A stretch of DNA of 33,908 nt from Myxococcota bacterium (GCA_028284955.1 JANQQS010000161.1:1-33908), one strand, 5' to 3'. Positions 13,223 through 26,100 are shown, numbered from the stretch's first letter. Translations and numbers: made by a program. The notes: generated by a model not told the origin, from the letters alone.

Positions 13223-15061
13223 GTGCAAGGAATCAATCGGTACAAAGCAGACCTTAGAGATTTCCATTTTCTGCTCTTTGAACAGTTCGGCCTTGATGAA
13301 CTGCTCGGCAAAGCGCCGTTCGCGGATTGGGGGGTCGAGGAATGCCGGCTCGTGCTCGACGAGGTGTATCGATTTGCCTGCGAAGTCACCGGCCCGCTGA
13401 ACTCGGTCGGTGACGCCCACGGCTGTCGATTCGAAGACGGCAAAGTCTTCGTCGCGCCGGGCTTCAAGGAAGCCTGGGACAAAATCTACGAGGCCGGCTG
13501 GTCGACGCTTACCGCCCCCGAAAACATCGGCGGGCAAGACGCGCCGCATACCCTCGGCGTACTCACCCAAGAAATGATCGGCGGGTCGAATACGTCGTTC
13601 AGCATGTACCCGAGCCTTTCTCTTGGCGCCGCCGAAGTCATCGGCCATTTCGGCACCGATCGGCAGCGTAAGCTTTATGCCTCGCGCATGACCGACGGCA
13701 CCTTCGGCGGAACGATGTGCCTCACCGAGCCCCACGCCGGGTCGGACGTAGGCAGCTCGGCCACCAAAGCCACCAAAAACGAAGACGGCACCTATTCGAT
13801 CAAGGGCACGAAAATCTACATCAGCGGCGGCGACCACGACATGACGGAAAACGTCGTACATCTCGTGCTCGCCCGCGTCGAAGGCGCGCCCCCGGGCACC
13901 AAAGGGCTGTCGCTCTTCGTGGTCCCCAAAATCCGTATCCAGGAAGACGGCTCGCTCGGCGAACCCAACGACGTCATCACGGCGTCGATCGAGCACAAGA
14001 TGGGCATCAAAGCCTCATCCACCTGCGCGCTTCAGTTCGGCGAAGACGACAACTGCATCGGCGAGCTCGTCGGCGAAGTCGAACACAAGGGCATGCACCA
14101 AATGTTTCGGATGATGAACTTCGCGCGCATCAGCGTGGGCATTCAAGGCCTCTCGGTCGCCTCCAGCGCCTACCTCAACGCGGTTGAATACGCGCGCGAC
14201 CGCAAACAAGGGTCGCATATCACGCAGTTCAAAGACCCCACCGCGCCCCGCGTCCCCATCATCGAGCATCCCAACGTGCGCAAGATGCTCCTCGACATGA
14301 AAGCCAAGGTCGAAGGGGTGCGCGCGCTGGTCGTCAAACTCGCGCTTCATCAAGACCGCGTGCACGTGCTTTCCGGCCAAGACGACGAACAAGCCGCCTA
14401 TCATCAGGGCCAGGTCGACCTGCTCACCCCGCTCGTCAAAGCCTACGGCTCGGACCAAGGCTTCGAAGTTTGCGCGTCCGCCATTCAAGTATTCGGCGGC
14501 GCTGGCTATCTGCGCGACCACCCCGTCGAGCAATACTGCCGCGACGCGAAAATCTTCAGCATCTATGAGGGCACCAACGCGATTCAAGCCCTCGACCTCG
14601 TGGGCCGAAAACTCGGCCAAGCGGGCGGAAAAAACACCCAGGCATTCCTCGCCGACGTACAGAAGTTTATCGACGCGCACCGCGAACACACCTCGCTCGG
14701 TAGCGAAGTGCAAGCTTTACAAAAAGCCCACGAAGCGGTGGCCGGCTGCGTGATGCAATTCCTGAGCTGGTTTCAGGCGGGGAAAATGGAGCAGATCCCC
14801 CTCGCGGCGGAAAACTTTCTCGGCATGATGAGTGAACTCGCCATCGGATGGCTCTTGCTCGAGCAAGCCGTCATCGCCGAAACCAAAGCAACCGACGTCT
14901 CAGACACCCACCCCGACAAAGCCTTCTACGCCGGCAAAACATTCGCTGCGCAATACTTCGCCCGCAACATCCTCCCCGCCGTGGTCAGCGCCGCCCGCGT
15001 GCTCACCCGCGAAGACAGCTCCGCGAACGACATCCCCAGCGAAGCGTTCGGAAGCGTATAA
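13223..15061 (+). CDS. Long-form acyl-CoA dehydrogenase
   Basis: A 612-residue FAD enzyme oxidising an acyl-CoA to the enoyl-CoA. The N-terminal domain precedes the FAD/substrate segment GTMCLTEPHAGSDVG, then the beta domain (YSIKGTKIYISGGDHDM), then helices with QVFGGAGYLRDHPVEQYCRDAKIFSIYEGTNAIQ, where Glu 449 is the expected catalytic base. The extra C-terminal 100-150 residues place it in the roughly 600-residue branch that includes DmdC (3-methylmercaptopropionyl-CoA dehydrogenase) and other broad-range enzymes; the substrate cannot be told. The start is GTG after a G-rich stretch. It stands alone, and the MORC-like operon begins 49 bp after its stop. Confidence 0.9.
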   Translation: MQGINRYKADLRDFHFLLFEQFGLDELLGKAPFADWGVEECRLVLDEVYRFACEVTGPLNSVGDAHGCRFEDGKVFVAPGFKEAWDKIYEAGWSTLTAPENIGGQDAPHTLGVLTQEMIGGSNTSFSMYPSLSLGAAEVIGHFGTDRQRKLYASRMTDGTFGGTMCLTEPHAGSDVGSSATKATKNEDGTYSIKGTKIYISGGDHDMTENVVHLVLARVEGAPPGTKGLSLFVVPKIRIQEDGSLGEPNDVITASIEHKMGIKASSTCALQFGEDDNCIGELVGEVEHKGMHQMFRMMNFARISVGIQGLSVASSAYLNAVEYARDRKQGSHITQFKDPTAPRVPIIEHPNVRKMLLDMKAKVEGVRALVVKLALHQDRVHVLSGQDDEQAAYHQGQVDLLTPLVKAYGSDQGFEVCASAIQVFGGAGYLRDHPVEQYCRDAKIFSIYEGTNAIQALDLVGRKLGQAGGKNTQAFLADVQKFIDAHREHTSLGSEVQALQKAHEAVAGCVMQFLSWFQAGKMEQIPLAAENFLGMMSELAIGWLLLEQAVIAETKATDVSDTHPDKAFYAGKTFAAQYFARNILPAVVSAARVLTREDSSANDIPSEAFGSV

Positions 15062-15110: not shown

Positions 15111-16967
15111 ATGTCTCGTTCGGACGCGCGGTGGATATTTGACCCGCTTCCGGCGTCCGGCGCTCGGCGCGGCGGCGACCCGGCGGCGCACGCCTTTCGG
15201 CACGATTTGGAGACGTTTGTGCGCGAAGTCGTACAGAACGCCAACGACCAAGCGCTGACGTGGCCAAAAATCCGCTTTCGGTTTCACGAAATCGCTGGAA
15301 AAGACCTTCAGCATTTTTTGGACGCGGCGTCGTGGCGCACGCTCAAGCCGCATCTGGAAGGGGCAGTCACGGCGCACAAACAACCTCGCCTCTCGAGCTT
15401 CTTGCAAGACATCCGCCAGCACAACAAACTCTTGATCCTTTTTCTGGAAGACTTTGGGACCGAAGGGCTCACTGGCGACGAGCTTCGCGGCGAATCCCAT
15501 TTTCGATCTCTCTGCAAGGACACACTGTACAGCCACAAACACACCGATGCGGCCGGAGGGAGCTATGGTCTGGGCAAGAGCGTGCTGTGGAGCTTCTCTG
15601 GCCTGTCCGCAGTGATTTTCTACTCGGTACTCGCCCAGGAACTCAAAGGGCAAACATCTCCTCGATTGATCGGTCGCGCAGAACTTCCTTCGCACGCAGA
15701 CCGCGCGCAATGGTTCAGCGGCCCAGGATGGTTCGGTCGCCCACGTGGCGCGCGAGCGGAATCGATGTGGGCGCAAGACGCCGAGAACCTCGCCCGAGCG
15801 CTGGGTTTTCAGTCCCGACCTCCCGAAGCGCTCGGAACCAGCATCGCCATCCTCGGGTTTCGGGACCCGACCAGCGAAGAAAATGTTTCGGTCGAGGAAC
15901 TAAACGGAAACGTCGCCTGCGCGGCCGGCAAGTTTTTTTGGCCCGCGATGTGTCGAGACCGCCGCAAGCTTCGGGTGCTCACCGATCGACCCGGCCCCCT
16001 GGCGAACGAGCCTTCGTTGATCGACCCGGCCGAACAAGACATCGTCGCCCCCTTTGTGGACGCCTACCTTCGCCGGAACCGGCCCGCCGAGCGATTGTTG
16101 CGGCCCGGCGACGTGGCGGTGCGGTCCATTCCGTGGGAACTCCCGAGCCGACGCGACGGCGTTCGCGCCCCCACCGGCCACGTGGAGCTCGTGGTTCGTT
16201 TGGCAGACGATCGCCCGAGCGACTCGCTGCTTCGCCACGTTGCGCTTTTTCGCGGGCCCGGAATGGTGGTCCGATACTGGAATCGAAGCAGTCTGGGCGT
16301 TGGAGTTCGCCCCTTTCATGCACTGCTCGCATGTGGAGAAGCCCGCGACCCGCGCAACGTGACCGCATCCGACCAGCATATCGAGCAATTCCTCCGTGCC
16401 GCGGAGCCGCCTGGCCACGACCAATGGCACGCCACCCCCCGACTCAAAACAGAGTACCTACGCGGCTACGCAAAAGCGCTCGAACGGCTCAAGGCGGCGG
16501 TTACCGCTGAGCTGCGCGACCTTCTGCTCCCCGTGCCCGCGCAAGGCGAACGTGGCCCCGAGCAACTGCAAAAGCGCTTTCCGGTAGGCCCACGTGGAGG
16601 AACCCATCGCGAACACAGTTTCCATTTCCACGATCTCCACGCCGGCTATACCGGAAACCACTGGAGTTTCGCCGGAGAGATCGCTCCCGCAACGAAACAC
16701 GACGGATTTCGAGCTCGGCTGTCTCTTCACGAAGTGGGCGATGGTGGCACGCCCGTCGCATCGATACCGATCCGCCAGCTCGTTTCCGCGCAGAAAGACG
16801 TGCGGGTGGACGTTCAACAAGGAGTTGCGCACATCGTGGGAGCCCCGTCCGTGCGGTCGGTTCGCTTTCGTGGTGCGAGCTCTCCCTATCCGCCGGACGC
16901 GCTGCCGGGTGAGCTCGGCTTGGACGTCGTGGGAACGCTGAGCACTGAGACGCGTAGTTCAAATTGA
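15111..16967 (+). CDS. MORC/Hsp90-like GHKL ATPase, candidate defence protein
   Basis: A 618-residue protein. The first 180 residues carry GHKL (Bergerat) ATP-site motifs: N-box FVREVVQNANDQ (36-47) with the metal-binding Asn, G1 box EDFGTEGLT (113-121), and G2 box GGSYGLGKSVLW (149-160). There is no His-phosphorylation or receiver domain, so it is not a sensor kinase. Residues 180-600 are unknown, with a probable S5-like transducer region. Prokaryotic MORC-like GHKL ATPases are known from comparative genomics to sit in operons with helicases, nucleases and methylases of restriction type. The start is ATG after AAAGGCGG. Two co-directional genes follow at 18 bp and with a stop/start overlap. 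A chaperone-like role cannot be excluded. Confidence 0.75.
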   Translation: MSRSDARWIFDPLPASGARRGGDPAAHAFRHDLETFVREVVQNANDQALTWPKIRFRFHEIAGKDLQHFLDAASWRTLKPHLEGAVTAHKQPRLSSFLQDIRQHNKLLILFLEDFGTEGLTGDELRGESHFRSLCKDTLYSHKHTDAAGGSYGLGKSVLWSFSGLSAVIFYSVLAQELKGQTSPRLIGRAELPSHADRAQWFSGPGWFGRPRGARAESMWAQDAENLARALGFQSRPPEALGTSIAILGFRDPTSEENVSVEELNGNVACAAGKFFWPAMCRDRRKLRVLTDRPGPLANEPSLIDPAEQDIVAPFVDAYLRRNRPAERLLRPGDVAVRSIPWELPSRRDGVRAPTGHVELVVRLADDRPSDSLLRHVALFRGPGMVVRYWNRSSLGVGVRPFHALLACGEARDPRNVTASDQHIEQFLRAAEPPGHDQWHATPRLKTEYLRGYAKALERLKAAVTAELRDLLLPVPAQGERGPEQLQKRFPVGPRGGTHREHSFHFHDLHAGYTGNHWSFAGEIAPATKHDGFRARLSLHEVGDGGTPVASIPIRQLVSAQKDVRVDVQQGVAHIVGAPSVRSVRFRGASSPYPPDALPGELGLDVVGTLSTETRSSN

Positions 16968-16985
16968 GAACAGCGGAAAACGTTC

Positions 16986-17990
16986 ATGGCGCAGCACGCA
17001 AAAGAATCGAAGACGAGAAAACGTTTTCTTCCCTTCGCTTACGATCGAACTGGGCTCCGATTGAGCATCGAGCGATGCACCCTCGACGACACAGGTGAAG
17101 CCGCGATAGACCCAAATCGGAACATCGTCGACATCGATCATGCGCTGCCCTGGACCCAAGCGCGGGTAACGGTAAGTTGTTCGTTGGGCGACGGTGTACT
17201 GGCCCGTGTCTTCACCGAAGACGAGCGCGCGGCGCCTCCGATGGAAGCGTGGCTCACGCTTTGTTCGCGGGAAACCAATCTCCGAAGGGGCATACGTTTG
17301 GCGCATCCCCGAAACGCAACGACCGTCACGGAAACATTTTCGCTCTTGCGAGACGAACTCTTCGGAACCGTGGAACTCACACCGTTTCTCGTTCGCGCGT
17401 CTGCCAGGCGCGTAGCCTCACCCGGCTACGCAAACGAGGAGGGAGCACGGGTCGCATCGGGTAGCCCGTGGCATCTTCGCGTCGACCGAAAACGCCCTCC
17501 CCCCGGAAAGTTTCTCGACGTCCGATACCGCAACTTCAGCGAAGACGCCGTCCTAGAGTCGCGTTCCGATTGCCTCTACGCGCTGGAGCACGAGTGCCCC
17601 GAACCCATTCTTTGGCTGAACTCCGACCACCCAAAGCTCGCTGCGACGCTCAACGATCGCGGCACTCGAGGGCGCAAAGCCCGAATCCGGGATGTGCTGT
17701 TCGACGCGGTAAGCCACGGAGTTTGGACGCAGCTGTTCATGAAAGCGGCCACCGACTTTGCCGATCACGATGAGCTTGTATACGCCTGGGAGGATTCGGT
17801 ATTTCGCGAACTCCTGCCGGCCATGTATCTCGCTCGCACCCACACGATGCGTCTCGAAAAGCTCCGCGAGCGCCTCGAATACGGCGGGCTCGCAACCATA
17901 CTGTCTGACCTAGACGCTGCGCTCCAGTCACATCTCAAAACCACCTCCCATATGACCGCGTTGGTCGAAGAAATCTTGGAGCGCGGGTAA
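16986..17990 (+). CDS. Unknown middle protein of the GHKL operon
   Basis: A 334-residue protein with no signal peptide or membrane span. I do not recognise a family. The N-terminal half is beta-rich (RLSIERCTLDD, ARVTVSCSLGDGVLARVF). A central region has basic patches (WHLRVDRKRPPPGKFLDVRYRN), and the C-terminal half is helical (DAVSHGVWTQLFMKAATDFA, RLEKLRERLEY). The segment around residue 210 (ECPEPILWLNSDHPKLAATL) might be a conserved core. Position between the GHKL ATPase (18 bp gap) and the next gene (its TAA overlaps the next ATG) says it works with both. A nuclease role is possible, but no PD-(D/E)XK pattern is clear. Confidence 0.7.
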   Translation: MAQHAKESKTRKRFLPFAYDRTGLRLSIERCTLDDTGEAAIDPNRNIVDIDHALPWTQARVTVSCSLGDGVLARVFTEDERAAPPMEAWLTLCSRETNLRRGIRLAHPRNATTVTETFSLLRDELFGTVELTPFLVRASARRVASPGYANEEGARVASGSPWHLRVDRKRPPPGKFLDVRYRNFSEDAVLESRSDCLYALEHECPEPILWLNSDHPKLAATLNDRGTRGRKARIRDVLFDAVSHGVWTQLFMKAATDFADHDELVYAWEDSVFRELLPAMYLARTHTMRLEKLRERLEYGGLATILSDLDAALQSHLKTTSHMTALVEEILERG

Positions 17991-18682
17991 TGCTTCAGAT
18001 TCTCCGCGAGGAGGGAGCCCGGCTTGTCACCCCCGAGCTCGTGGCCGGCGAAGTGCTTCGTTGGCCCGCGGACGCCTACGAAGGGCTCGTCGAAGAACTG
18101 AACCGAGATATCTCGCTCGATAGCTTCGATCGCATCGTCGATTCGATTCTCAACGAGACGCCTCGGTACAGCCCATCGATCGATGCTCTGGCCGCGGCCG
18201 GCATCCACCAAGCGCTGCCGTTGACGCGCCGAGAAGCTCGCGAGCCGGGCATCTGGCGTTTCCTTACCGTGATCTACCGGCCAGATTTCGTGCGCCATCG
18301 ATGGGAAAATCGTTCGTGGAGCACGATGCGTTCTCGCTTTCTTCGCCTCGACATGCGCCCGGACGGGAACGCGATAGCGCGCCTGTGGTGGATTGCCGAA
18401 CTTACCCGCCGAGATACGAACTACGCCCTGACTTCGAAAGTGCTCAAGCGACAAACACTCGCCAATGGTCTGTTCGTGCGTGACCTGGCCCACTTCCCAC
18501 CCGCCATCGCCGCATGCGTCGAAGAATTAGAAGACGCACCAGCCCACGTCATCGAAGCCACGCTCAAAGAGCTCACCCGTATGTTGGGCCTCATCGTGCT
18601 CGAAAGCTGTGACTCGGCGCGGCTTCAAACGCTTGTCCGAAAAGCACGCCGCTCCATATCGAGCAAAGAAAGCTCGAGGTAA
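17990..18682 (+). CDS. Unknown protein resembling DUF6339, third gene of GHKL operon
   Basis: A 230-residue, mainly helical protein. Its ATG shares one base with the preceding TAA (TAATG), so translation is coupled. The core AREPGIWRFLTVIYRPDFVRHRW followed by NAIARLWWIAELTRR resembles, from memory, the DUF6339 family, whose members I recall beside GHKL ATPases and Z1-type helicases in restriction-like islands; I cannot verify this here. Multiple Trp and Arg residues in that core suggest a nucleic-acid or protein contact face. No catalytic motif is evident. It ends 43 bp before the end of a convergent gene, closing the operon. Confidence 0.6.
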   Translation: MLQILREEGARLVTPELVAGEVLRWPADAYEGLVEELNRDISLDSFDRIVDSILNETPRYSPSIDALAAAGIHQALPLTRREAREPGIWRFLTVIYRPDFVRHRWENRSWSTMRSRFLRLDMRPDGNAIARLWWIAELTRRDTNYALTSKVLKRQTLANGLFVRDLAHFPPAIAACVEELEDAPAHVIEATLKELTRMLGLIVLESCDSARLQTLVRKARRSISSKESSR

Positions 18683-18725: not shown

Positions 18726-19430
18726 CTACGAACGACGTAGCCTCCACCGCGCTCCTCGACCTTGACCGCTCACTTCCAAACCGGCGCCAAGCAAATCGTG
18801 CCGGGCCTGGGCGCGCGAGATGCCGTGATCCACCGCGCGGAGATACTCTTGCATCGATACGCTTCCCTGCCGCTCCACCAACGATCGCAGAATGTCCGCG
18901 CGCGTACGGGCGTCGTATCGCCCCACCTGTTGCTTGCGAAACGCGTCCATCGTGGGTCGCTCCGCGCCGATGAAGCCCCACGCGGCATACGCCCGCAAAT
19001 TTCGCCCCCGCCGGCGCTCTGAGCGACGACTGCCCGGGCGATCGAGATCGATAAAAAACCGCTCCGCGGGGAACACCGGGGACCACCCCGACCGCAGGTA
19101 GGCCACCATAGCGCGGAGTTCGGCATCTCGAGACGCTTCATAGGCAAACTCGGATGCCACGAGGAGCGCCTGCGGAAACCGCATCTCCGCCATCGCCGCG
19201 CGCAACTGTCGCGGGTTGATGCGGTGCTCATGTTCTAGCCAAAACTGGAGAAGAATGGAGAGCAAGCGCGCGTCGTAGCGAAGCATGTCGCCAGCCAACG
19301 CGATCAGCTGCTCGAGGCTGCGAACTTTGTACGGCCAGGCTCGCCGGGCGCCGACCGAGGGCGCTCCCTCTCGCCGCAACTCGAAGTATAGGCGCTCGAG
19401 CTCACGTGTGGTTGGCGGGTGAAGCAGCAT
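18726..19430 (-). CDS. Winged-helix-like partner of a nucleotidyltransferase
   Basis: A 234-residue basic protein without signal peptide. The N-terminal two thirds are helices (TTRELERLYFELRREG, LEQLIALAGDMLRYDARLLS). The last 60 residues (RADILRSLVERQGSVSMQEY, then GISRAQARHDLLGAGLE, then GQGRGARWRL) read like a winged helix: recognition helix, then a beta-wing. It follows the nucleotidyltransferase gene by 27 bp on the same strand. A DNA-binding protein paired with a nucleotidyltransferase recalls AbiEi/AbiEii-type systems, in which the winged-helix member is antitoxin and repressor. Gene order here is reversed relative to AbiE, and this assignment is inference. Confidence 0.6.
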   Translation of the reverse strand: MLLHPPTTRELERLYFELRREGAPSVGARRAWPYKVRSLEQLIALAGDMLRYDARLLSILLQFWLEHEHRINPRQLRAAMAEMRFPQALLVASEFAYEASRDAELRAMVAYLRSGWSPVFPAERFFIDLDRPGSRRSERRRGRNLRAYAAWGFIGAERPTMDAFRKQQVGRYDARTRADILRSLVERQGSVSMQEYLRAVDHGISRAQARHDLLGAGLEVSGQGRGARWRLRRS

Positions 19431-19457: not shown

Positions 19458-19997
19458 TTACAATGACTCCGCATCACGAAGGTCATCAAAAAAGTCTGCC
19501 GCCGCGTCGGCATGCGGAATTCTTCGTTCAAGCAAGTACGCAAGTTGCGCGTCGACGACATCCAAATCGTCGCACAGATGAATGAGCTTGCGTGCATGCA
19601 GAAGATCCTTGTCGCGCCCCGCAAAACACTTCATCACCAGCAAATCCTCCGGCCCCAGCGCGCTCACCGAAAGCCGGGTTCCCGAAAACACTGGTCGCAA
19701 GCGGTCGCCGTAGTCGCGCGGAAGCACATGCGCGAATGTTTCGAAATGCGCATTCAGCCAATCCGGAGCGAGGTTCATGTTCTTAGCGACCCGGCGGGCC
19801 GCGGCATCCAATTCGGAAACCCGCACGCTCCCTCGTTTTGCGAACGCATCCACATCCTGGGTCGCTAGGGGATGATTGTACGCGAGCACCATGGCCGCTC
19901 CGCGTCCCACCACCAGCTCCGCTTCCCGCTCTATCTCGCCATCGAGCCGCCGAAAAGCCTCCCGAGCGAGCGACCGGTCGAGCAGTGTGTAAGCCAT
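19458..19997 (-). CDS. Nucleotidyltransferase-fold protein (DUF6036-like), putative toxin
   Basis: A 179-residue protein. Its nucleotidyltransferase pattern is ELVVGRGAAMVLAYNHPLAT, then QDVDAF with the D-x-D metal pair, and later DLLVMKCFAGRDKDLLHARKLI, the usual DUF6036/AbiEii-like helix (L-x-x-K-x-x-A-x-R-x-K-D). The glycine motif GRGAA departs from the common GG-[ST], so activity is uncertain. The ATG at 19997 has no good Shine-Dalgarno sequence; the region upstream is AT-rich with repeats. Probably the effector of a two-gene toxin-antitoxin-like module with the following winged-helix gene. Confidence 0.65.
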   Translation of the reverse strand: MAYTLLDRSLAREAFRRLDGEIEREAELVVGRGAAMVLAYNHPLATQDVDAFAKRGSVRVSELDAAARRVAKNMNLAPDWLNAHFETFAHVLPRDYGDRLRPVFSGTRLSVSALGPEDLLVMKCFAGRDKDLLHARKLIHLCDDLDVVDAQLAYLLERRIPHADAAADFFDDLRDAESL

Positions 19998-20071: not shown

Positions 20072-20485
20072 CTAGAGAAACACGCGGTAGTCCGTCTTGA
20101 ACACCTTAGCCAATCGCATGGCCATGGATTTTCCGATGGGCCGGCGTCCATGCTCCATCGCGGAAATATCGCCCTGCGTCGCTCCGATTTTCTCGGCTAA
20201 ACGCTGCTGCGTCAGACCTTCGCGCGCACGGAACCCGCGGAGCACGGTTCCTGCTCGTCCATATTTGGCGTGTAGGCCCGCAAAAACCTCCTCCGAGGAC
20301 CTAAACTCGCGCAACCTGGGTTCGTCAGACCTGGGTTCGTTGGACTCCTCTAGCGCGTAGGGACGCAGAAGCTCGATCACCCCCTCGGCGGCTTTTTTGG
20401 GAACAAGAAAACTCTTCGGGTTCCTCCCGCCGATGGTCACCCTCACCCCATGACTAGTACGGTGCTTTTTCATGGGTGCCGACAT
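20072..20485 (-). CDS. XRE-family antitoxin (HigA-like)
   Basis: A 137-residue protein. The ATG at 20485 is chosen because GGAGGT lies 5 bases upstream. The C-terminal 60 residues are a clear Cro/C1 helix-turn-helix: REGLTQQRLAEKIGATQGDI, then SAMEHGRRPIGKSMAMRLAK. The N-terminal part is a linker with a short VTIGGRNPKSFLVPKKAAEG segment. Its start lies inside the 3' end of the toxin gene (32 bp overlap), the toxin-first order of HigBA-like pairs. It should bind the toxin and repress the shared promoter. Confidence 0.8.
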   Translation of the reverse strand: MSAPMKKHRTSHGVRVTIGGRNPKSFLVPKKAAEGVIELLRPYALEESNEPRSDEPRLREFRSSEEVFAGLHAKYGRAGTVLRGFRAREGLTQQRLAEKIGATQGDISAMEHGRRPIGKSMAMRLAKVFKTDYRVFL

Positions 20486-20747
20486 AAAACACCTCCACAA
20501 TGCGCACGGTACGTTTCTGCGCCTCCCAGCAAACGACGTACGTGGGGCGACCTGATCGCACATGACAATGATATTGATTCGGTCGGCCCCGCAGCTTCCC
20601 AAAATTCTTCCAACCCCTTCCATGCAGCGCCGGCCCGAACACCTCTAAATCTGCCGCGAGCGCAGCCACCGCAAGTTGAACCCGCTCCGGCATGTTCCGA
20701 AGCGCTTTGGCTGCAGTCTTGGAAAATTGGATTGTCCATCGTTCCAT
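20454..20747 (-). CDS. RelE/HigB-like toxin
   Basis: A 97-residue basic protein with the RelE/ParE fold pattern: MERWTIQFSKTAAKALRNMP, a helix (VQLAVAALAADLEVFG), then beta strands NFGKLRGRPNQYHCHVRSGR, PTYVVCWEA and RTVRIVEVFYVGTHEKAPY. RelE-family toxins cut ribosome-bound mRNA; HigB members often precede their antitoxin, as here. The ATG at 20747 is preferred over a TTG four codons earlier. The antitoxin gene overlaps its end. Confidence 0.75.
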   Translation of the reverse strand: MERWTIQFSKTAAKALRNMPERVQLAVAALAADLEVFGPALHGRGWKNFGKLRGRPNQYHCHVRSGRPTYVVCWEAQKRTVRIVEVFYVGTHEKAPY

Positions 20748-21164: not shown

Positions 21165-22190
21165 CTACTCTACGGTGGGCCTCGGGGCTTTGATTCCCTG
21201 AACCGCTTTCTGAAAATCACGAAAAAATCGTTCTTCAACTTGGCTATCAAACCGACGCGGTTCTTTCACAGGGAAGATCGGCGCGCCGGTGGACACGCGG
21301 AAAGAACACTCCTCGCCGTCGATACGGCAGCGCGCGCGAAGCTCAAACTCCCGGCACCACGATAGGCGCGGCACCACGCCGGCAAGGGCTCGCGCGTACA
21401 TCGTGGTGCGCCGAAAAAGAGCCAGCGGGCCCGAAATATGAATCACGAACCCGCCATCGGCCGCCGCGCGAACGACGCCCAGCAACCCCACCAAGTGAAC
21501 ATAGCGCAACACATCCTTCGCGCCCCCATCCACCCGAAGCGTCACGTGGCGCGAGCTGCGAAGGAGCGACTGAATGCTCGCAAGATTGACGCGCACCATC
21601 AGCTCATCGAGCGTCACCGCCGACTTCGGTGCGCAGACGATTCGTTCGCTAGGCAAGTCTGCTAGGAGGCTGTCCGCCAGTTCCTGAGGGCTCACCCCGA
21701 GTGCGTGAGCGGCAATCCGCCGCGCTTCCGCGACCGACCCTCCCCGGCTAGTAAACAGCGTTCGTCTCGCAACGCGCGGCTTGACGGGAGCGCCGACTTT
21801 GGATCCGTAGAGCTGGTCCAAAACGCGTGCGGCGTCCCGAAACGCGTACGCGTTCACGGAAAGGGTCACCTCGAGCAGACGAATCCGTTCACGACGCATA
21901 TGCACCGGAGCGCCCACCGAACTCTCGTACTCATAGAGCAATCGCCGGAGCCACGGCCGATCTCCGTCGCTCAGAAAGCGTGGCGTGAATTCCCGCACTT
22001 CTCGGTCTCCGTCCGTGCCCGATCCTCCAAAAACGTCCAGTTCACCCAAATCGCCCGGCCCACCAGAGTCGCCCGGTTCACCAGAGTCGCCCGGTTCACC
22101 CCAATTGGTTGAGGCACCCCAATTGGTCGGGGCACTCAAATTGCTCCGGGCACCAAATACTCTCGGATTGTTATGCGGCATCCACATCAC
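21165..22190 (-). CDS. Bax1/DUF790-like protein, N-terminal part, partner of XPB helicase
   Basis: A 341-residue part of a Bax1 (Binds Archaeal XPB)-like nuclease. The family region begins near VREFTPRFLSDGDRPWLRRL and runs to FPVKEPRRFDSQVEERFFRD, where the nuclease domain starts; it then meets an in-frame TAG at 21165-21167. The first 60 residues are an unusual array of six-residue repeats (GEPGDS, APTNWG, ASTNWG) encoded by 18-bp DNA repeats. The start is GTG at 22190 or ATG at 22181, overlapping the helicase end by 11-20 bp, so the pair is translationally coupled. Known Bax1 acts with XPB as a helicase-nuclease on bubble or damaged DNA. Confidence 0.75.
   Translation of the reverse strand: MMWMPHNNPRVFGARSNLSAPTNWGASTNWGEPGDSGEPGDSGGPGDLGELDVFGGSGTDGDREVREFTPRFLSDGDRPWLRRLLYEYESSVGAPVHMRRERIRLLEVTLSVNAYAFRDAARVLDQLYGSKVGAPVKPRVARRTLFTSRGGSVAEARRIAAHALGVSPQELADSLLADLPSERIVCAPKSAVTLDELMVRVNLASIQSLLRSSRHVTLRVDGGAKDVLRYVHLVGLLGVVRAAADGGFVIHISGPLALFRRTTMYARALAGVVPRLSWCREFELRARCRIDGEECSFRVSTGAPIFPVKEPRRFDSQVEERFFRDFQKAVQGIKAPRPTVE
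22027..22170. repeat. 18-bp tandem repeat array within the Bax1-like gene
   Basis: About eight consecutive 18-bp units, the best two identical (CCAGAGTCGCCCGGTTCA at 22063 and 22081) and others diverged (CCCCAATTGGTTGAGGCA at 22099, CCCCAATTGGTCGGGGCA at 22117). In frame they encode hexapeptides near the protein's N-terminus with consensus x-x-x-[ND]-x-G. Such arrays expand and contract by slippage. Confidence 0.8.
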
Positions 22191-23604
22191 CCAGCGGTTG
22201 CCGCTTCGACTGACCCGATGCGAGTTGACGATTCTTGCTGCGCCGCTCTTCCATCGTGCCCCGACACACCAATTCGATCACCGTGGCGCGCTTTCCCGCG
22301 CTGGGCCGGAGCACGCGACCTATCCGCTGTACGTGTTCCCGGCGGCCAAGCGTAGCTCCGACAATGATCGCGACATCCGCATCGGGCACGTCGTAGCCTT
22401 CGTTGAGCACCCGAGACGACACGATGCCGCGAAGCTTGCCGGCGCGAAATAGATCGAGTGCCTCGTCGCGTTCGGCCTTTTTGATGTCGCAGGTAATCGG
22501 CCAGAGCAGATGTTCGCGCGCCACCGCATACGCGGAACGATTGTCGGCCGTGAAACACAACACTCGGCTGCCTCGCGTGCCCCGAAGAATGCACCGCAGC
22601 GCCTCGGCCTTGGCGCTCGGATAACTCACGATGTGCTCGGCGCGCCGCAGCGCAAGCAGCGCCTCCTCGCCGCCGGGAATTGTTCTGACGCGGGCCACCA
22701 GCGCAGCCCAAGACAGGCCTCGTTCCCCGCGACTGGCGATATTTCGAGCGTGCCGAAAACGCCGAACCAAACGATCGTATTGCTCCTGCTCCGGCGTACG
22801 AAGATCTACGAAGCTCACCGTATGATCGAAATCAGCGAGAAACCGGCCGCGTAGCTCTTCGATGGCGGTTTCGGAGCAGATCTCGCCCACCAGTTCGTCG
22901 AGTGTCTCTCGATGATCCCCGCATTCAGAAGGCGTCGCAGTGAGGCCCAGGCGAAACGGAGCGATGGCCATGTGCAGCAGCTCGGTACGACTGCCGTGAC
23001 CAAAATGATGCGCTTCATCTACCACCAGCAATGCATATCGATGACCGATGCGGGGCATCGCGCGCAGCGCACTCTCGAACGTCGCAACGGTGACGGCACT
23101 GATACGTCGATGGCCGTCGCCGAGCATACCGAGATCTTTGGCATCGAACATCTCGCTCATCCGTTCGTACCACTGATGCAGCAACACCCGCGTCGGCACC
23201 ACCACCAGGGTAGGCACGCGCAACCGGCTAGCCGCGGCCAAGCCCAGATGCGTTTTGCCCGCCCCCGTCGGAAGCACCACCACACCGCGCCGTCCAGCCC
23301 GCCCCCACGACTCAAGGGCGGCTTCCTGATACGGCCGAAGCTCCACATCTTTGGCGTACACTCGGCGAGTCACATCGCGTAAAGCGACCGGTCGACCTTC
23401 GAGCGCACGCACCAACCCTGCAAAGTGGTAGGCGGGAGCACGATGGGCATCTACCCGTGGATCCCAAACCAAACCTTCCCGCAAATCACGCAACTCTGCG
23501 CAAGGGCGCCCGCCCAGATTCTCCCGTATCCGCCGCGCCGCATCTTCCCGCACCAGCAGCGTACCGCGATCAAAACGCAGCATCCCTTTCGCCCGTTCCA
23601 ACAT
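22171..23604 (-). CDS. XPB/Rad25-like superfamily 2 DNA helicase
   Basis: A 477-residue helicase. Motifs in order: Q-like ELRPYQEAAL, Walker A LPTGAGKT (111-118), VVPTRVLLHQW, DEAH box VVDEAHH (DEAH at 196-199), LGLTATPS, the C-terminal RecA lobe (SRVLCFTADNRSAYA, GIVSSRVLNEGYDVPDADVA) and motif VI QRIGRVLRPSAGK. The 90 residues before the helicase core fit the XPB damage-recognition-like domain. The start could be the ATG at 23604 or the one seven codons in (MLRFDRGTLL), which looks more like family starts. It overlaps the Bax1-like gene. Bacterial XPB is scattered, often with Bax1, and is tied to DNA repair or defence; which applies here is unknown. Confidence 0.88.
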   Translation of the reverse strand: MLERAKGMLRFDRGTLLVREDAARRIRENLGGRPCAELRDLREGLVWDPRVDAHRAPAYHFAGLVRALEGRPVALRDVTRRVYAKDVELRPYQEAALESWGRAGRRGVVVLPTGAGKTHLGLAAASRLRVPTLVVVPTRVLLHQWYERMSEMFDAKDLGMLGDGHRRISAVTVATFESALRAMPRIGHRYALLVVDEAHHFGHGSRTELLHMAIAPFRLGLTATPSECGDHRETLDELVGEICSETAIEELRGRFLADFDHTVSFVDLRTPEQEQYDRLVRRFRHARNIASRGERGLSWAALVARVRTIPGGEEALLALRRAEHIVSYPSAKAEALRCILRGTRGSRVLCFTADNRSAYAVAREHLLWPITCDIKKAERDEALDLFRAGKLRGIVSSRVLNEGYDVPDADVAIIVGATLGRREHVQRIGRVLRPSAGKRATVIELVCRGTMEERRSKNRQLASGQSKRQPLGDVDAA

Positions 23605-25087: not shown

Positions 25088-25495
25088 ATGGACGAGGCAC
25101 GTACAACGAAGCCAGCGAGTCCAAACGCACCGGAATCTCTGAGCGCATACGTGAAAGGCTTGCGGGATCGCGAACGGTCTCGGCAATCGCGTGACCAAGC
25201 CTACCGTGAACGCGTTCTCGCGCGCGTACGCGAAGCGGCCCAGATCCTGGCATCGCGCTACGACGCTCGCCGCGTCCTCCTCTTCGGCAGTCTCGCCCGC
25301 AACCAGGCAATGCCAGGCAGCGATGTCGACCTACTCGTTTGGGGCCTCGACCCGAGCCGCCTGTTCGAGGCGTCGGCCGAAGTGAACGCCATTCTCCAGG
25401 AAGCCTATGCCGACCTGGTGCCCGAACAAATCACCTATCCCCCGGTCAAACGTAGAGCGCTCGACGAAGGCGTGTGGCTCTTGGACGGTGAGTGA
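25088..25495 (+). CDS. Minimal nucleotidyltransferase (MntA-like)
   Basis: A 135-residue protein with an N-terminal charged helix (about 55 residues) followed by the minimal nucleotidyltransferase core: RRVLLFGSLARNQAMPGSDV and DLLVWG, that is G-S-x(9-10)-S-D-x-D, with metal-binding Asp residues. In type VII toxin-antitoxin pairs MntA adenylylates and silences an adjoining HEPN RNase (HepT). The start is ATG just after GGAGA. The expected HEPN gene follows at 25503 but appears decayed. Without a live toxin this gene may be an orphan antitoxin. Confidence 0.75.
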   Translation: MDEARTTKPASPNAPESLSAYVKGLRDRERSRQSRDQAYRERVLARVREAAQILASRYDARRVLLFGSLARNQAMPGSDVDLLVWGLDPSRLFEASAEVNAILQEAYADLVPEQITYPPVKRRALDEGVWLLDGE

Positions 25496-25502
25496 TTGGC
25501 CT

Positions 25503-25700
25503 ATGGAAGAACTTGGACTGCACTCAAAACAGATACGCAAGCTTTTGGAACACACGTCGAGACACTCGCACTCGCCGCGGAGCGCGCTGGCACCTGAATC
25601 GAGCAACGTCGCCGCTAACTCTGTTCCCGATACGAACACTGAAGTATGTTCGGCTGCAAGCCGTCTCCGCTCCGAATACGTTTCATGTATTTTATCGTGA
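25503..25700 (+). pseudogene. Remnant of a HEPN (HepT-like) partner
   Basis: An ATG 5 bp after the MntA-like stop begins MEELGLHSKQIRKLLEHTSR, which has the position and helical character of a HepT N-terminus. Coding character fades after about 30 residues, the HEPN R-x(4-6)-H motif is absent, and from 25615 the frame overlaps the 3' end of the convergent gene. I read it as a decayed toxin stump; support comes mainly from position. Confidence 0.3.
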
Positions 25701-26100
25701 CCGGGTCCGTGTCCAACTCGAACCTTACCGTCCCGTCGCCCAAAGGAAATATCCCGGTCTGGTTCGCGCTCACGTCGTGGAACTTCAATCGTTGGAGCGT
25801 CGCGCCTGGATTGGATGAGATATCCCCTTCGACCTGTCGCTGCGTCCATGCCGCGCCTTCACCCTCGAATACATAGGGAAGCTCGCGTACCAGCTTTCCG
25901 CCGTATCCGAAAAACCCGCCCCGTCTAACAGCATTGTGCTCATTGCGCTTCAAACGAAGCGAAACCTTCGTGTCCCACAAACCGTTGGTGTAAACGCGTC
26001 TTCCCTCGGGCCCAGTAGCGATCTCGACAGCGTACTGCACCGAAAACAGGACAACGTACGACTCGCGAAAACCTGACCCCGCTGGAAAAGAACCATCCAT
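25615..26100 (-). CDS. Unknown protein, third gene of a lipoprotein operon
   Basis: A predicted protein of 161 residues, beta-rich and basic, with segments such as SYVVLFSVQYAVEIATG, DTKVSLRLKRN and FFGYGGKLVREL. I do not recognise a family. The ATG at 26100 has TTGGAG directly upstream, a poor spacing. It lacks a signal peptide, unlike the two lipoprotein genes ahead of it (70 bp gap). In the upstream DNA this frame is open only back to a TGA about 40 bp earlier, while another frame reads VSTSRFTIRDQ into the same point. A frameshift that removed the signal peptide is possible. Confidence 0.5.
   Translation of the reverse strand: MDGSFPAGSGFRESYVVLFSVQYAVEIATGPEGRRVYTNGLWDTKVSLRLKRNEHNAVRRGGFFGYGGKLVRELPYVFEGEGAAWTQRQVEGDISSNPGATLQRLKFHDVSANQTGIFPLGDGTVRFELDTDPVTIKYMKRIRSGDGLQPNILQCSYREQS

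Follow-up and report, generated by a model that had tools for sequence, protein, structure and literature searches.

Can a GHKL ATPase and its partner proteins act in defence without the restriction genes that accompany so many of their relatives? The question is raised by three adjoining genes, here called A, B and C, in a window (the whole stretch of DNA that was analysed, 33,908 nucleotides) from a Myxococcota bacterium (GCA_028284955.1 JANQQS010000161.1:1-33908). Prokaryotic ATPases of the MORC and paraMORC families have so far been read as accessories of restriction-modification systems. We see about an even chance that A, B and C together make up a complete module for defence against foreign DNA, one that has spread laterally and is centred on a GHKL ATPase of paraMORC2 type.

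A three-gene operon conserved as a unit

Gene A (15111-16967, 618 aa), gene B (16986-17990, 334 aa) and gene C (17990-18682, 230 aa) lie on the plus strand, each with an ATG start, and are separated by 18 bp between A and B and joined by a 1-nt overlap (TAATG) between B and C; gene A begins 49 bp after the end of an acyl-CoA dehydrogenase gene (13223-15061, a match to the Pfam model Acyl-CoA_dh). The genes lie exactly where an earlier interpretation made from the sequence by itself (hereafter the sequence-only reading) had placed them, with the gaps and overlap that it gave. The three genes form a genuine operon, and their open reading frames (ORFs) are not the product of chance, because relatives of A are 37-53% identical to it over almost all of A and are followed by B and C wherever the contig permits.

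Among 379 genomes of the phylum, A is present in 14, and DUF6339, the family to which C belongs, in 15, where it adjoins A and a B-type protein in every case except G179, where the end of a contig cuts the DUF6339 gene short. When 84,980 species genomes were searched with a profile, 39 loci came up, from Myxococcota, Halobacteria, Cyanobacteriota and Actinomycetota, and the order A, B, C is kept in almost all of them. The trio is also found on haloarchaeal plasmids, and the A-carrying records among 72,556 plasmids have B and C as well, with two exceptions: a Synechococcus plasmid in which C is annotated as DUF6339 but scored under the search threshold, and a divergent Deinococcus record in which both B and C fell below it. 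Gene neighbourhoods thus show the three kept together in nearly every uncut locus found, which answers a concern of the sequence-only reading, that they might not be conserved together in other genomes. We define A-B-C here for the first time as an obligate three-gene unit. The only copy affected by a frameshift is that of genome G372 (L020 7958-9791), where A is split into two ORFs through either assembly error or decay.

The arrangement of flanking genes bears on how the trio arrived. In several genomes from the same bacterial family, the acyl-CoA dehydrogenase gene still has ArgS as its neighbour (the order in G359 being iPGM, esterase, ArgS, dehydrogenase), and at none of the eight loci compared does A, B or C lie downstream. 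Retention of the ArgS-dehydrogenase pair without the trio in close relatives, together with flanks that differ at every other trio locus, identifies the trio as a sporadically distributed cassette that has spread laterally and was inserted here. Its guanine-cytosine content is the same as that of its flanks, and neither a flanking repeat nor a tRNA was found at the trio. A viral carrier was considered and rejected, since viral contigs hold no relative of A and an unannotated phage record gave the one weak match (23% identity over 46% of A).

Motifs of A fit the paraMORC2 family

The product of gene A comprises an N-terminal GHKL and S5-like region followed by a C-terminal extension. We scored motif conservation over 34 aligned homologues (the window copy and 33 relatives), in which all four GHKL motifs occur in the expected order and are invariant or nearly so. 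The N-box, EVVQNANDQ (15225-15251; this and all other motifs are on the plus strand), carries E39, the predicted general base, N43, a predicted Mg ligand, and D46, each conserved in 34/34 homologues. The G1 motif, EDFGTEGLTG (15447-15476), keeps D114 and G119 in 33/34 and G122 in 34/34; the G2 (lid/glycine) motif, GGSYGLGK (15555-15578), keeps G149, G150, G153 and G155 in 34/34 and K156 in 32/34; and the G3 motif, GT(S) (15834-15839), keeps G242 in 34/34 and T243 in 33/34. Further along, R381 (16251-16253), present in all 34, is a candidate for the basic S5-domain residue that contacts nucleotide, a role taken from the S5-domain arginine or lysine described in PMC2292703.

The same study (Iyer et al. 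2008, PMC2292703) defines MORC proteins by the motif GhXhhpXXRhl and paraMORC2 proteins by an ExxxH motif in the S5 domain. The latter signature appears in A as EPPGH (residues 432-436; 16404-16418), with E432 and H436 kept in 34/34 homologues and in 6/6 Z1-associated ones, and the MORC-specific motif is found in 0/34 trio A proteins and 0/6 Z1-linked ones. Because ExxxH is kept and the MORC motif is absent, A fits, by its motifs, a paraMORC2-like protein rather than a MORC. The sequence-only reading had described a GHKL ATPase with MORC/Hsp90-like motifs; the GHKL motifs are indeed present and in order, but the protein is not a MORC proper.

The PADLOC profile PDC-M33A matches A with an E-value of 1.1e-20, and hhalign finds A homologous over 407 columns to the GHKL protein of Z1-type operons (probability 99.95). 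Against HATPase_c_3 proteins, hhalign brings the N-boxes into register (pairwise E 5e-4, probability 32%). Sequence searches of the PDB with profiles of A, B and C returned nothing meaningful.

The two partner proteins

The sequence-only reading had listed B as an unknown 334-residue protein, and B remains without a recognised family: Pfam scans of A, B and their relatives gave no meaningful family match. AlphaFold2 predicts an immunoglobulin-like beta-sandwich (residues ~20-168), a small beta region and a C-terminal helical bundle (216-333). The model has a predicted local distance difference test score (pLDDT) of 92 and a predicted template modelling score (pTM) of 0.59, the latter leaving the packing of the domains uncertain. 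A fold search with this model retrieved generic beta-sandwiches only (for example RbmA, GH2 and BRR2, with Z up to 8.0). B aligns over 215 columns with the protein in the same slot of Z1 operons (probability 97.5); at loci L022 and L023 the protein in that slot has diverged so far that its score is weak or absent, yet it aligns with B via its family. A profile for NsnC, a component of the Menshen system, aligned with 59 residues of B only, at an E-value of 0.0096.

C belongs to DUF6339 (PF19866; E 3.9e-18, 66.2 bits against a gathering cut-off of 23.2), as the sequence-only reading had proposed for this 230-residue protein, and is matched by the PADLOC profile PDC-M33C (E 5.4e-10). Its AlphaFold2 model is compact and all-alpha (pLDDT 95.8, pTM 0.91), and a fold search with it in PDB and viral libraries found nothing with an E-value below 2. 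Conserved polar residues comprise the invariant R104 and R131 and the nearly invariant D65, N127 and E205; we know of no nuclease signature that they fit. Pfam scans of the three proteins turned up no nuclease domain.

Three genomic contexts and a solitary clade

Scanning the window with Pfam and defence profiles revealed no methylase, Z1 or DUF4420 gene adjoining the trio, in agreement with the sequence-only reading, which had noted that methylase, nuclease and Z1 genes are missing beside it. Across all loci, we distinguish three contexts. In the first, a Z1 helicase gene (MzaC-like) and mostly a DUF4420 nuclease gene accompany A, B and C, a C5 methylase gene lies close by, and Vsr is present in some cases; this Z1 type comprises L022 and L024-L026, together with L027, where DUF4420 was not detected, and L023, where the contig ends early. 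In the second, which occurs in haloarchaea, actinobacteria and one cyanobacterium, the trio has a C5 methylase gene as its neighbour (so placed at 17 of the loci from haloarchaea, cyanobacteria and actinobacteria), and Vsr is also present at some loci; on the Synechococcus plasmid, A, B, C and the methylase form a tight operon with 4-bp overlaps around C. The third context is solitary, and comprises about 16 distinct Myxococcota loci, the window included, whose fetched flanks contain no homologue of C5 methylase, Z1 or Vsr.

Several arrangements at individual loci can be recorded here. In L027 (651-12169), a UvrD-like helicase gene comes before A-B-C and Z1 and a DrmA-like one immediately after them, giving a DISARM-like hybrid. 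Haloarchaeal loci (L040, L042-L046, L048 and L052) often carry two trios of different clades, set head-to-head or tail-to-tail with the methylase between them or close by, an arrangement suggestive of paired or heteromeric systems. Proteins of ~257 and ~456 aa without a Pfam family (clusters c2 and c3) recur beside haloarchaeal trios (L042, L044-L047, L051, L053, L055 and L060). Genes for HhH-GPD base-excision glycosylases (cluster c1) recur near the C5 methylase at haloarchaeal trio loci, as Vsr does elsewhere, consistent with repair of deaminated 5-methylcytosine.

In a maximum-likelihood tree built from 49 A proteins, the window's protein falls into a clade whose 12 rows are all solitary and myxobacterial (support 97/88), distinct from the haloarchaeal methylase-linked clade, and context is strongly clustered on this tree (5 changes versus 18.4 for shuffled labels). 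No C5 methylase (PF00145) and no Z1 (PF10593) occurs anywhere in the window's own genome, which is 96.6% complete. Of the seven solitary-trio genomes at least 90% complete, five (the window's own, G047, G126, G365 and G372) are without a C5 methylase; G086 and G218 have C5 methylases that are unlinked to the trio. The sequence-only reading had allowed that homologues might always need the methylase or Z1 genes and that this copy might be inactivated; a solitary clade exists, and all ATP-site motifs are intact. In most lineages a C5 methylase accompanies the trio, joined in some cases by Z1 and DUF4420; the myxobacterial clade does without all of them. Both this clade, living without a C5 methylase, helicase or nuclease partner, and the three-context scheme are new here.

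Possible mode of action and alternative explanations

The sequence-only reading suggested a minimal stand-alone defence system. The trio is a conserved three-gene unit, solitary both in the window and throughout a myxobacterial clade, which occurs sporadically and in many chromosomal contexts. The interpretation that we find best supported is a defence cassette with the GHKL trio as its core; ATPase activity, complex formation, DNA target and role in defence are properties that we infer. In the mechanism that we envisage, A would bind ATP, dimerise through its GHKL domain and clamp down on the DNA of an invader; B, with its beta-sandwich and helical bundle, may serve as a scaffold or target-sensing subunit, and C may be an obligate DNA- or complex-binding partner. 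The trio would stop foreign DNA without using a nuclease of its own, either because the DNA is trapped or compacted or because a nuclease of the host is brought in. The C5 methylase linked to the trio in relatives probably marks self DNA, and the myxobacterial lineage without it would tell self from non-self otherwise. Since cutting unmethylated DNA would kill a methylase-less host, the solitary form should sense a feature absent from the host, rely on an unrelated methylase for protection, or act without cutting.

A role in defence is supported by the co-conservation of the three genes, their sporadic and plasmid-borne distribution, their proximity to methylase, Vsr and DrmA-like helicase genes, and the PDC-M33A and PDC-M33C matches. 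Several observations weigh on the other side. The GHKL label of A is based on motifs, because Pfam GHKL models score neither A nor any of its 33 relatives, and hhalign comparisons of A with MutL, MORC-like and other HATPase_c_3 proteins of the phylum aligned essentially the N-box alone. C, or the C-terminus of A, could conceal a nuclease that bears no known signature. The window's genome encodes N6/N4 methylases elsewhere, which might protect in trans, and none of the papers searched mentions DUF6339 or PDC-M33.

A bolder version of the defence reading, which we put forward tentatively and think rather improbable as a whole, is that a MORC-like clamp restricts foreign DNA without methylase, helicase or nuclease, distinguishing self from non-self by the state of the DNA (topology, ends or chromatinisation) and entrapping or compacting its target, in the way that transposons are dealt with by eukaryotic MORCs. 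The existence of a solitary clade in genomes without C5 methylase or Z1 points to the GHKL trio as the working core, and raises the questions of how a solitary trio avoids self-attack and whether DNA is captured or cleaved. If true, DNA capture would tie bacterial immunity directly to MORC-mediated silencing in eukaryotes.

Foremost among the alternatives, and in our judgement unlikely, is that the trio forms the restriction half of a restriction-modification-like system in which an unlinked N6/N4 methylase supplies the protective methylation in trans. The link of trio relatives to C5 methylases speaks for such a division, as do N6/N4 methylases in 7/8 trio genomes, including the window's own and all seven that are at least 90% complete. 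The linked methylases are, however, of the C5 type, which the five genomes named above do not have; moreover, when the strongest N6/N4 methylases were compared, the window's genome, G218 and G372 shared one at 63-67% and the others differed, and a shared N6/N4 partner was rejected for want of a common orthologue among them.

Somewhat harder to sustain is a type IV-like, modification-dependent system that attacks foreign DNA bearing a modification absent from the host. For the five of seven solitary-trio genomes without a C5 methylase, DNA containing 5-methylcytosine would be foreign, as this explanation requires, but G086 and G218 have unlinked C5 methylases alongside the trio, close relatives of the trio live beside a C5 methylase, and no modified-base reader domain was recognised. 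We regard as improbable a role in chromosome-associated silencing or organisation in place of defence, as known for eukaryotic MORCs: it would suit the GHKL clamp architecture and the lack of a recognised nuclease in the trio, but sits poorly with sporadic presence, variable flanks, plasmid carriage and ties to methylase, Vsr and DrmA-like genes.

Very doubtful is the suggestion of the sequence-only reading that the trio acts together with a nearby helicase-nuclease pair, which Pfam identifies as XPB-Bax1 (DUF790; 21165-23604, minus strand). The pair lies in the same window, 2.5 kb from the trio; its helicase is Rad25-like, and Rad25-like helicases have been tied to MORC operons (Iyer et al. 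2008, PMC2292703); and the trios of G372 and Terrabacter likewise have XPB/SF2-like helicase genes no more than a few kb away. Those helicases, however, are of other types, and the window's pair is on the opposite strand with three genes intervening. Since DUF790 is common in the phylum (196/379 genomes), is matched in neither G047 nor G086, both of them trio genomes, and has no homologue beside any other trio, we rejected XPB-Bax1 as a partner. Finally, we give almost no credence to the trio being a decaying remnant of a larger Z1/methylase operon: six-gene Z1-type operons do hold the same three genes, but the three ORFs here are intact with their motifs kept, only the G372 copy is frameshifted, and a diverse solitary clade (about 37-53% identity) persists.

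Other genes of the window

The XPB-Bax1 pair of the window is a second, divergent one, another DUF790 gene of the genome lying at G000:C213:22311-23489. Between 18726 and 20623 on the minus strand, a DUF6036 nucleotidyltransferase gene (19458-19997) has an uncharacterised protein gene downstream (18726-19430) and a helix-turn-helix protein gene upstream (20072-20623), a cluster that resembles an AbiE toxin-antitoxin arrangement. On the plus strand at 25088-25818, an MNT-like nucleotidyltransferase gene (NTP_transf_2) is overlapped by a small ORF without a Pfam match, possibly an MNT/HEPN-type toxin-antitoxin pair.

Relation to known systems

Three elements of this picture are already described: paraMORC2 proteins in restriction operons, the six-gene Z1 system and the candidate system PDC-M33. 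Like the paraMORC2 family of Iyer, Abhiman and Aravind (2008, PMC2292703), A has the GHKL ATP motifs and the C-terminal ExxxH and no MORC-specific motif, and its relatives are tied to C5 methylase, Vsr, Z1 helicase and a restriction-endonuclease-fold nuclease; unlike it, the window has no linked restriction genes and has two obligate partners, B and the DUF6339 protein. In that study, standalone genes were reported only for paraMORC3, with a nuclease domain of its own.

Type I of the putative Z1/DUF4420/C5-methylase system (PMC9523054, Nat Commun 2022) consists of 'three core and three additional genes', a composition that L022 and L024-L026 share, with Z1, DUF4420, C5 methylase and A-B-C making six genes. 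We infer that A-B-C makes up the additional set, in which case the window holds the three non-core genes only and none of the three core ones. The Z1-type relatives also match MzaC and MzaD of mzaABCDE, whereas the window has neither Z1 nor DUF4420, and no Mza model recognises B or DUF6339.

PADLOC's PDC-M33 likewise has three components of similar sizes, with profiles that match A and C. Its PDC-M33B profile (289 positions), by contrast, has no match in the window's own genome, with E-values up to 1 considered, or in 7 other trio genomes; PDC-M33B was rejected as a relative of B, there being no usable M33B locus and a single broken match. The last comparison is with the GHKL-containing Shedu protein VcSduA, a paraMORC3 (PMC12137116). 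It differs in having a fused PD-(D/E)xK nuclease, where none is recognised in A, and it is alike in that a GHKL ATPase acts there in anti-phage defence.

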